A stretch of 64,000 nt of DNA from Sporomusa sphaeroides DSM 2875 (lineage in GTDB: Bacteria > Bacillota > Negativicutes > Sporomusales > Sporomusaceae), in contig NZ_CP146991.1 in assembly GCF_001941975.2 (NCBI RefSeq), forward strand, positions 1,908,524 through 1,972,523. Reading direction: 5' to 3'. Below the pieces are notes generated by a model, which saw nothing but the letters and a program-made list of their open reading frames with translations, made no database searches and was not told the DNA's origin. The position numbers were made by a program, and so were the translations under genes. The stretch's first letter is position 1; each line of letters begins with the position of its first letter. This document shows positions 35,365 to 60,691 of this stretch, piece by piece.

Positions 35365-35404
35365 AGTACCTTGCGTCACCTCACTATTTAAGTGATGCGG
35401 GGTA
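35365..35404 (+). repeat. Family E short copy E1
   Basis: AGTACCTTGCGTCAC arm facing GTGATGCGGGGTA: 13 positions from 35367 pair fully if G.U pairs are allowed. The left arm matches the terminal inverted repeat of the 161-bp element at 58914-59074 at 14 of 15 bases, with the middle missing. Confidence 0.55.
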
Positions 35405-35424
35405 TTAGGCAGGAGTTGATTGTT

Positions 35425-57580: not shown

Positions 57581-58915
57581 ATGCTTAAAGCAGGATTTGT
57601 TAGTTTAGGATGTGCCAAAAACCTGGTAGATACGGAAGTAATGCTGGGGATTTTGGCTGATAACAATATAACTATTACCGATGACCCACATGCCGCCGAT
57701 ATCCTGATAGTCAACACCTGTGGATTTATAGACTCTGCCAAAGAAGAGTCTATTTCCACCATTATTCAGATGGCTGATTTTAAACGGGAAGGTAAATGCC
57801 GGGGACTTATTGTTGCCGGCTGTCTGGGGCAGCGTTATCAGCAGGAATTATTAGATGAATTGCCGGAAGTATCGGCCATTGTCGGTACCGGCGCCTGGCA
57901 CCGGATTATGGAGGCAGTACAGGCTGTTCTGGCCGGTGAGCGTCTTTTGCTTATTGGTGAGACAGATACCATTTATGATGAAAATATGAGACGTATTACC
58001 ACTACCCCTTCTTATAGTGCTTATGTAAAAATTGCCGAAGGCTGTAGTAATTGCTGTTCCTATTGTGTGATTCCGCTGGTACGGGGAAAATATCGCAGCC
58101 GTACAGTAGAATCCATTGTCAGTGAGGTAAAAAATCTCACCGCGCAAGGTGTAAAAGAAATAAATTTGATTGCCCAGGACACTACCAGTTATGGGCGTGA
58201 CCGTTATCATACGCCGCAGTTAACAGCCTTGCTTAAAGAATTGGTAAAAATCGACGGACTGCTTTGGATTCGGCTGCTTTATTGCTATCCCAAATATTTT
58301 AATGATGAACTTATTGAAACAATTGCCAACGAACCTAAGATTTGCAAATATATTGACATGCCGCTGCAACATGCTGACGATGAAATATTAGCGGCCATGA
58401 ACCGCCGCGATACACGGGCGGATATTGAAACATTACTAACTAAAATTCGAACTTCCATCCCTGGCGTAGTTGTTCGTACTTCATTCATTGTCGGGTTCCC
58501 GGGTGAATCAGACGCGCACTTTGAAACCTTAAAGCAATTTATGCTGGCGCAAAAGTTTGAACGGGTAGGTGTTTTTTCCTACTCCCAGGAAGAAGGCACA
58601 CCAGCCGGGGCTTTGGCGCAGCAGGTGCCTGACGCGGTTAAAGAAGAACGCTATCACGAACTGATGGCCTTGCAATGCCAGATTTCTGGAGAACTGAATC
58701 GCCAGATGGAAGGAAAAGAGCTTACGGTACTGATTGAAGGCCATAATAGCGAACAGCCTGATGTGGCTTTCGGCAGGTCATACCGGGAAGCGCCTGAGGT
58801 GGATGGACGGATTTTTGTGGAGAACGCTGGCGGGCTGGTCCCCGGGACGGTAGTACAGGCAGAGGTTGTACAAGGATTTACGTACGATCTGTTAGCTGAG
58901 AAAAAGCCGGACTAG
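57581..58915 (+). CDS. rimO: Ribosomal protein S12 methylthiotransferase RimO
   Basis: 444 aa. Adds a methylthio group to Asp88/89 of ribosomal protein S12. Methylthiotransferase domain with VSLGCAKNLVDTEVM and VNTCGFIDSAKEES, radical SAM cluster motif CSNCCSYCVIP, QPD-like FVVGFPGE segment (FIVGFPGESD) and a C-terminal TRAM domain. ATG after TAGGAGG. The stop codon TAG shares its last two bases with the terminal inverted repeat of element E2. Confidence 0.96.
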   Translation: MLKAGFVSLGCAKNLVDTEVMLGILADNNITITDDPHAADILIVNTCGFIDSAKEESISTIIQMADFKREGKCRGLIVAGCLGQRYQQELLDELPEVSAIVGTGAWHRIMEAVQAVLAGERLLLIGETDTIYDENMRRITTTPSYSAYVKIAEGCSNCCSYCVIPLVRGKYRSRTVESIVSEVKNLTAQGVKEINLIAQDTTSYGRDRYHTPQLTALLKELVKIDGLLWIRLLYCYPKYFNDELIETIANEPKICKYIDMPLQHADDEILAAMNRRDTRADIETLLTKIRTSIPGVVVRTSFIVGFPGESDAHFETLKQFMLAQKFERVGVFSYSQEEGTPAGALAQQVPDAVKEERYHELMALQCQISGELNRQMEGKELTVLIEGHNSEQPDVAFGRSYREAPEVDGRIFVENAGGLVPGTVVQAEVVQGFTYDLLAEKKPD

Positions 58916-59074
58916 TACCTTGTGTCACTTAAAATTTGCGATTAGATAGCAAGGATTTTTTCGTCCTGCTAGGCGGAGGAGCCGCGCATATCGGACATAT
59001 GTAAGGCGACGACAACAACGCAGGACGGAAAAAGACTGCTATATAATCCAAATAATTAGGTGACACAAGGTACT
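58914..59074 (+). repeat. Family E element, full copy E2 (MITE-like)
   Basis: 161 bp with perfect 15-bp terminal inverted repeats AGTACCTTGTGTCAC / GTGACACAAGGTACT. Inside, TTTTTCGTCCTGC and GCAGGACGGAAAAA, and TAGCA/TGCTA, pair as well, making a long nested hairpin with a GC-rich centre. No ORF. The form suggests a miniature inverted-repeat element; no clear target duplication is visible. Confidence 0.8.
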
Positions 59075-59136
59075 GCATCTTAAACCTCATATCCGATTTC
59101 GCCAAGGCACCAGCCATAATACTATAATGCAAGCTC

Positions 59137-59172
59137 AAAATAGTAGAGGCGTCATGCTCTGCTATTTTTTAT
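59137..59172 (+). terminator. Terminator after rimO / element E2
   Basis: AAAATAGTAGAG and CTCTGCTATTTT pair over 12 positions (one G.U) with an 8-nt loop, then T residues. Confidence 0.7.
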
Positions 59173-59314: not shown

Positions 59315-59443
59315 AGTAATCCGGTTATAAACAAGCCATAGCAATAATGCGGTTATTAACGATAATTTTTGCGGTAAAATATCAATTAAGTAAAGGATTT
59401 GCTAATTTATAACGCGAATGCATTAGAGTTAGGGGGGAAAGTA

Positions 59444-60691
59444 ATGATTGTAGAGTTAGTCAGTACAGGAACTGAACTGCTTTTGGGACAGATAATAAAT
59501 ACCAATGCGCCATTTTTAGCTACCCGCTTAAACGAGCTGGGGTTTAGCGTGATATATCAAACAACAGTCGGTGATAACCGGGACAGAATGAAGCTGGTTT
59601 TAAAAACCGCATTAGAACGGGCCGACCTTGTTATAACAACCGGTGGACTGGGACCAACGCAAGGTGATATCACCAAAGAAGTAACCGCATCGCTGCTAGG
59701 TAAAACGCTGTATCTGGATGAGGCAAGTGCCAAGCAAATTGAGCAGTATTTTGCCACACGCCGTACCTGTATGCCAAGTAATAATTTGCGTCAGGCCATG
59801 ATGCCCGAAGGAGCACGGATTGTTGAAAATACTTGCGGCACAGCGCCAGGTGTTATTATTGAAGACGAGGCGACAGGTAAAATTATTATCAATCTGCCGG
59901 GACCGCCGCATGAATGTTCAGCCATGTTTGAAACCTCGATTGTTTCGTATCTTAGCGAACGCTTTGGTTTTCAGGGGGCGATAGTATCAAGAGTCCTCCG
60001 TACCTATGGGCTGGGAGAGTCGGCGTTAGAAGAGCGAATTAAGCACTATATTTTATCTCAGTCCAATCCGACGATTGCCTTGCTAGCCCGCAGTGGTGAA
60101 ATTCACGTGCGCATTACTGCTCAGGCGGCAAGCGAACCAAAAGCTTTGCAAATGATTCACGATCTCGAAAGCCAAATCCGCCCGTTGTTAGGTGAACATG
60201 TTTTTGGAATTGATGAAGACACTATCGAGATGAGTGTGGGCAAATTATTACTGGAAAAAAAATTGTCGGCAGCGCTTGCAGAATCTTGTACCGGCGGCCT
60301 TGTTACCAGCCGTATTACCGATGTTCCCGGCAGTTCGCGGTACCTGACAGGTTCCATAGTGTGCTACAGCAATACTGTCAAAGTGGAACAAGTTGGCGTT
60401 GCCGAAGAAATACTTGCCGAAAAAGGGGCCGTAAGCCGTGAGACAGCTCAAAGCATGGCTCAGGGTATTAGAGAAAAATTTTGTGCCGGTGTAGGTATCG
60501 GCATTACCGGTATTGCCGGTCCTGACGGCGCCACTGCCGATAAGCCGGTAGGACTTGTTTACATTGCCATTGACGGTCCGGCAGGAACCAACTGTTACGA
60601 GCATTATTTTACAGGAGCACGTACTGATATAAAAAACCGGACGGCTCTAGCCGCCCTTAGTCATTTGCGGCATTATCTGCTTACTATTTAG
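59444..60691 (+). CDS. cinA: CinA: competence/damage-inducible protein, nicotinamide mononucleotide deamidase
   Basis: 415 aa. N-terminal MoCF-like domain (VELVSTGTELLLGQIINTN, TTGGLGPTQGDITKE; COG1058 type) and C-terminal PncC amidase domain (LAESCTGGLVTSRITDVPGSS, GITGIAGPDGA). Recycles NMN from DNA ligase; in naturally competent bacteria it is induced with recA. ATG 59444 with AGGGGGGAAA upstream; in-frame codons from 59399 lack a ribosome site. Conserved cinA-recA neighbourhood, here with a helicase gene between. Confidence 0.95.
   Translation: MIVELVSTGTELLLGQIINTNAPFLATRLNELGFSVIYQTTVGDNRDRMKLVLKTALERADLVITTGGLGPTQGDITKEVTASLLGKTLYLDEASAKQIEQYFATRRTCMPSNNLRQAMMPEGARIVENTCGTAPGVIIEDEATGKIIINLPGPPHECSAMFETSIVSYLSERFGFQGAIVSRVLRTYGLGESALEERIKHYILSQSNPTIALLARSGEIHVRITAQAASEPKALQMIHDLESQIRPLLGEHVFGIDEDTIEMSVGKLLLEKKLSAALAESCTGGLVTSRITDVPGSSRYLTGSIVCYSNTVKVEQVGVAEEILAEKGAVSRETAQSMAQGIREKFCAGVGIGITGIAGPDGATADKPVGLVYIAIDGPAGTNCYEHYFTGARTDIKNRTALAALSHLRHYLLTI

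Follow-up and report, generated by a model that had tools for sequence, protein, structure and literature searches.

The window, the whole stretch of 64,000 nucleotides of Sporomusa sphaeroides DSM 2875 that was analysed, carries a short palindromic element directly at the 3' end of rimO, upstream of a cinA-family gene. The features of this locus, together with a shorter form found elsewhere in the window, are listed below in window positions.

57581-58915, + strand: rimO, with the left TA of the target duplication inside its TAG stop
58913-58914: left TA of the target duplication, bases 1-2 of the rimO TAG stop
58915-59073, + strand (the strand kept foldable): whole element, GT...AC, 159 bp
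58915-58932, + strand: left terminal repeat (outer 18 pairs)
58971-59016, + strand: 46-nt core, exact in several copies of the same genome and recognisable outside the class
58972-58980, + strand: GGCGGAGGA, 5' strand of a nearly invariant internal loop (single G-C pairs between G.A pairs)
58987-59001, + strand: apical hairpin CATAT-CGGAC-ATATG, the stem of which covaries in relatives
59008-59016, + strand: GACGACAAC, 3' strand of the same internal loop
59056-59073, + strand: right terminal repeat
59074-59075: right flank TG, read as an altered second TA
59137-59170, + strand: inverted repeat and T-run 3' of rimO, kept in element-free relatives and marking the empty locus
59399-60691, + strand: cinA-family gene downstream (open reading frame as listed; its ATG is probably further in)
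35366-35405, - strand: 40-nt internal-deletion form after pnp, lacking the core and flanked by TA on both sides

The original prediction described a 161-bp MITE with perfect 15-bp terminal inverted repeats, a two-base overlap with the rimO stop codon and no open reading frame. The perfect 15-nt inverted repeat is present (AGTACCTTGTGTCAC at 58914-58928 and GTGACACAAGGTACT at 59060-59074), nested in 38-nt arms that are 82% complementary; the TAG at 58913-58915 agrees with the overlap, and the element contains no open reading frame of 100 aa or more. The size, however, needs correction, as comparison with other copies sets the ends at GT (58915) and AC (59073) and thus gives an element proper of 159 bp. 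Since the left TA lies within the TAG stop, the insertion leaves the RimO protein intact. Several insertions elsewhere also fall exactly in a gene's TAG stop with the stop codon kept, and the distance to the left gene is -1 in eight listed contexts. Compared with shuffled sequences, the fold of the rimO copy has a z-score of -11.2 as DNA and, as RNA, of -13.2 for the + strand and -9.6 for the - strand.

A BLAST search of the S. sphaeroides genome with the 161-bp sequence gave 35 matches, comprising eight near-full copies at 87-100% identity, one at 76% and a number of deleted forms. The case of a conserved RNA gene at a single locus, against which the prediction had set its MITE reading, is thereby disposed of. 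At 18 of the matching places only part of the inner ~76 bp is matched, and these matches sit in elements that have other ends, such as CTAGTAGTCCACC, CTAGTACCTCATC and CTAGTGTTGCATC; GTAGTCCACC is one end type of the element. R1, a covariance model built from the inner part, finds 28 core copies at unrelated loci in this genome. The 161-bp form therefore represents just one end type within a far larger group of elements with a common core. Core-less short forms occur in the same genome at 1424257-1424302, 4148784-4148832, 219414-219450 and 409086-409162 and in the window at 35366-35405, and forms of this kind exist in several genomes. The one after pnp, which had been predicted, reads GTACC...GGTAT and lies in the orientation opposite to the rimO copy, and its mismatches are G.U on the + strand of the window, just as proposed. 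Five copies of the genome (L131-L135; also L019-L021, L024 and L027) carry an insert of ~70 nt that follows ACGATAA in the core loop; these copies measure 224-232 nt, and the insert itself is conserved among the five.

That the element inserts into TA with duplication of this dinucleotide is evident from sister genomes. The occupied site L214 reads GGTTA[element]TAGAC and its empty counterparts read GGTTAGAC (L258) and GTTTAGAC (L269), an exact TA duplication; the insertions at L216 and L209 have empty orthologues as well, with less clean junctions. The right flank of L209 (query positions 359-400) holds a stretch of ~40 nt beside one Pelosinus-type copy, and this stretch recurs at dozens of places in the genomes of that genus as another repeat family. 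At the rimO 3' region no element was found in 16 relatives within the 150-260 nt after the stop codon, and in the closer relatives this region runs directly into the conserved inverted repeat and T-run. Ends were assigned in 119 of 135 copies, of which 111 with a length of 150-163 nt were used for the analyses of strand fold, end clusters and recent changes. TA flanks both sides in 79 of the 119, a count that leans towards TA because the end-finder, which required GT...AC, gave a bonus for flanking TA. The length is 157-161 nt in 102 of the 119; among the exceptions are six copies of 220-232 nt, five of them carrying the core insert, and the remaining ones mostly have ends that the finder set some bases inward (visibly so in L122, L175, L184 and L190, for example). 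Distant copies of the CTAG type come to ~158-160 nt after trimming of the flanks. Over all genomes read, the terminal repeats fall into 21 clusters, and one genome (G009) contains three identical copies at different loci. The element is thus real, mobile and multi-copy, and in its terminal inverted repeats, small size and lack of a transposase ORF it is MITE-like.

Members of the family are widely distributed. Among relatives, 12 of 41 genomes are matched by the 161-bp query. R1 matches at least 33 of 150 genomes of the class Negativicutes, to which Sporomusa belongs, representing 21 of 70 genera, and at least 9 of 299 genomes of the phylum, six of them outside the class; the class and phylum counts are lower bounds because scans over 40 genomes used stricter filters. 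The exact core pattern was met in 16 stretches from Sporomusa, Pelosinus, Propionispora, Lucifera and two metagenome bins. Cargo of phages or plasmids was considered and rejected as an explanation, given only one plasmid record (Sporomusa termitida) and the end of one viral contig, which holds GGCGGAGGA/GACGACAAC in closely similar form. The core pattern was absent from the phage records, and two other patterns gave no hit.

The element is built round a conserved core. The sequence GGCGGAGGA...GACGACAAC, in which single G-C pairs are split by G.A pairs below an apical hairpin, is nearly invariant in the 111 aligned copies, including those outside the class, and a core helix flips from GCC/GGC to GGC/GCC among copies. 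In an alignment made without a model (A1), containing 54 of 67 copies after removal of five with the extra core insert and eight that were decayed or partial, 92.5% of the cells pair, and 122 cells show two-sided changes versus 35±5.6 in shuffled alignments. A larger alignment of 107 distinct sequences, including some from outside the class (A3, fitted to a model built from A1), has two-sided changes at 28 of 31 pairs and in 437 cells versus 138±13, a value reached in 0 of 500 shuffles; these shuffle counts do not represent probabilities, since the copies are related. Slid controls were far lower for both alignments, so that the covariation exceeds that of shuffled and slid controls alike, as expected of a structured RNA. 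A known RNA family was rejected because nothing in Rfam 15 matched at gathering score: the sequence around the window copy had no match at E<=1, and the hits at six other loci, all below threshold, were microRNA hairpins and one sRNA model. With regard to copies that stay in place, element and flanks change at about the same rate in six orthologous pairs, only one of which shows several compensatory changes. The structure is accordingly not clearly kept in resident copies.

The two strands of the element differ markedly. In 109 of 111 copies the RNA fold of the core strand is more stable than that of its complement, by a mean of 18.6 kcal/mol, and the core strand is likewise the better folding one in all 17 distant copies with assignable ends. 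For the outer 18 pairs, the consensus sequences of the 21 end clusters contain 329 Watson-Crick pairs, 36 G.T, 3 A.C and 10 others, and recent changes between nearest neighbours led to G.T in 65 cases and to A.C in 22. In the end of a DNA transposon, G.T and A.C would be equally tolerable on either strand, and a single folded strand therefore seems to matter even in the terminal repeats. Imperfect palindromes are subject to template-switch correction during replication. Such correction could produce covariation in the arms, yet neither the strand bias nor the conserved unpaired loop.

In relation to neighbouring genes, which were taken from longest-ORF calls, the orientation of the element is balanced (++ 49 and -- 41 of 131 contexts); it is 12 to 2 in the S. 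sphaeroides genome alone and 37 to 39 in the other genomes. As there is no orientation preference overall, we did not adopt the view that the element regulates its neighbours. A crude hexamer scan found no conserved sigma-70-like promoter inside the element.

As to the enzyme that moves it, sequence comparison points to IS630 as the likely type. IS630 prefers CTAG as target. The S. sphaeroides genome has two IS630-family matches, one of which (L091) has the ends GTACTCCATCAAAC/GTACTCCACCAAGT between CTA and TAG; at L091:875-2091 it is an insertion sequence in CTAG whose transposase lies in two overlapping frames, being either frameshifted or programmed. An IS630 of a second genome (G006) has the ends GTGACTCGCCAAAGTT/GTGACTTGCCAAAGTT, also written GTGACTCGCCAAAG and GTGACTTGCCAAAG. 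In a comparison of IS630 ends with 133 distinct ends of the element, each of these two had a better end that agreed with an element end at 12 of the 14 positions following GT (P 0.001 and 0.0006 by shuffling); the end type matched was not that of the rimO copy. No likeness was seen for a third IS630 group (G009, L222; P 0.26 and 0.36), and a fourth IS630 (L217, G009) was clearly unlike the element ends. The IS630 transposase (PF13358) is present in S. sphaeroides and in 3 of 15 other element-bearing genomes and absent from the remaining 12. The kilobase-sized parent transposon with the ends of the rimO copy, which the MITE reading had led one to look for, did not turn up in the S. sphaeroides genome, nor did an enzyme for this end type; a parent for another end type was likewise absent from G009, G014, G035 and G052, both parent searches covering unpaired single sites only in part.

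Taken together, these data lead us to lean, with some reserve, towards a non-autonomous TA-inserting element that is moved in trans by IS630/Tc1-mariner-type transposases and that carries a structured, predicted RNA. Acting on the terminal repeats, which they recognise, such transposases would insert the element at TA, for the most part inside CTAG, with duplication of the TA. The lineage would have lasted across much of Bacillota by swapping its end sequences at a length fixed at ~159 nt. Its payload would be a folded single strand, most likely RNA, consisting of a long imperfect hairpin with the G.A-rich loop GGCGGAGGA/GACGACAAC and the covarying apical hairpin. Because no promoter of the element's own was found, this RNA would presumably be made by read-through from neighbouring genes, and with its long stem it would be a suitable substrate for RNase III, by which the core could be freed as a small RNA.

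A simpler account holds that the element is an ordinary MITE, an internally deleted IS630 relative, whose fold and covariation are by-products of terminal repeats and palindrome correction and whose core is a leftover. Terminal repeats, TA duplication and IS630-like ends agree with this, as do the core-less short forms in several genomes and the fact that orthologous copies evolve like their flanks; moreover, 62 nearest-neighbour pairs of copies show 16 compensatory changes within the outer 18 base pairs, as palindrome correction would give. However, the unpaired GGCGGAGGA/GACGACAAC loop should be lost under such correction, yet it is nearly invariant in the 111 aligned copies, and palindrome correction predicts no strand bias, whereas G.T exceeds A.C by 36 to 3 and 65 to 22. 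Nor does the account explain why 21 end clusters go with a single length, 157-161 nt for 102 of the 119 copies. We consider it rather unlikely. The MITE reading of the original prediction thus stands in part: the many copies, terminal repeats, TA duplication, internal-deletion forms and two IS630 elements with similar ends all bear it out, but a simple internally deleted transposon derivative leaves the strand-specific covarying core unexplained. The label is right for how the element moves and incomplete otherwise, and the data suggest that this is not just a degraded transposon but a carrier of a small structured RNA.

Alternatively, the folded strand could be an intermediate of transposition, either single-stranded DNA or an RNA copied back, with the core bound by a recombinase or reverse transcriptase and the IS630-like ends arising by convergence. 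It would account for the strand asymmetry extending into the terminal repeats and for a structure that seems better preserved as the lineage spreads than in resident copies, and it sits well with the lack of IS630 in most element-bearing genomes and with insertion without a general orientation preference. On the other hand, the TA duplication, the CTAG target and the two end matches to IS630 are in keeping with a DDE transposase that works on double-stranded ends, no candidate enzyme for such an intermediate was found, and core-less short forms have spread over several genomes; we regard this explanation as improbable. The S. sphaeroides genome also has three RAYT-type Y1 transposase genes (G000:C1:3608156-3608485, 3827161-3827496 and 4047629-4047964; L029-L031), and the element ends GTAG/GTGG resemble REP tetranucleotides, but a REPIN moved by RAYT is very improbable and was rejected, as the RAYT flanks, where repeats were found, are unlike the element ends (inverted repeats of the GGGACAAGG or GGGACGTTCCC type, which form a repeat system of their own, delimit L030 and L031, and no bounding repeat was recognised at L029) and TA duplication is not a known feature of RAYT movement. 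L031 additionally contains a long array of 12-nt CTTTTTTGTTTT units.

Returning to the trans-mobilised element with an RNA payload, we tentatively propose a broader reading, possible rather than probable, in which the family is a mobile non-coding RNA gene found across much of Bacillota. The selected unit would be the fixed-length single-strand fold with its nearly invariant G.A-rich internal loop, the DNA ends being interchangeable vehicles, and the fold would be needed for spread either as a trans-acting RNA released from read-through transcripts or as a movement intermediate. The usual view of bacterial MITEs is that of passive remnants of insertion sequences. In the present family a measurable structure is retained: a single strand, a single length and a single internal loop persist while the ends are replaced, and this recurs in other classes. 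The strand-specific conserved fold is in our opinion the finding worth following. It provides a covariance model able to find the family and a defined loop that may serve as bait for a binding partner, and it raises the question of whether small mobile repeats carry selected RNA.

The literature covered by our search, represented in part by excerpts, contains no description of this ~159-bp element family, but several known repeats resemble it in some respects. The passages available on RUP of Streptococcus pneumoniae describe a 107-bp repeat with a cognate IS630-Spn1 in the same species, and our element is like it in being a non-coding repeat of ~100-160 bp with TA at both ends, IS630-like terminal repeats and a tight hairpin (PMC3049150, PMC2229807). 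It is set apart from RUP by description, being ~159 bp long with 21 end clusters round one core and reaching beyond the class, and IS630 is absent from 12 of 15 genomes that carry the element. ERIC, for which neither an invariant internal loop nor a strand test is known, is likewise set apart by description, as it belongs to another host group and has a different length (127 bp). According to the portions of the literature consulted, ERIC, IRU and RU-1 are, like our element, small TA-inserted palindromes without a known parent, and the ERIC hairpin affects mRNA (PMC2229807, PMC10969869). Correia/NEMIS elements are also TA-inserted with terminal inverted repeats and have two length classes that differ by an internal segment, and their transcripts are cleaved by RNase III; in contrast to our family, the sections of these articles that deal with them describe no end diversification round one conserved core (PMC10969869, PMC2229807). 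Finally, BOX of S. pneumoniae is, in the part of the source that treats it, a mobile repeat with a transcribed form of defined RNA structure, but it is built of boxA, boxB and boxC modules, whereas the present element is one unit of near-constant length (PMC3049150).
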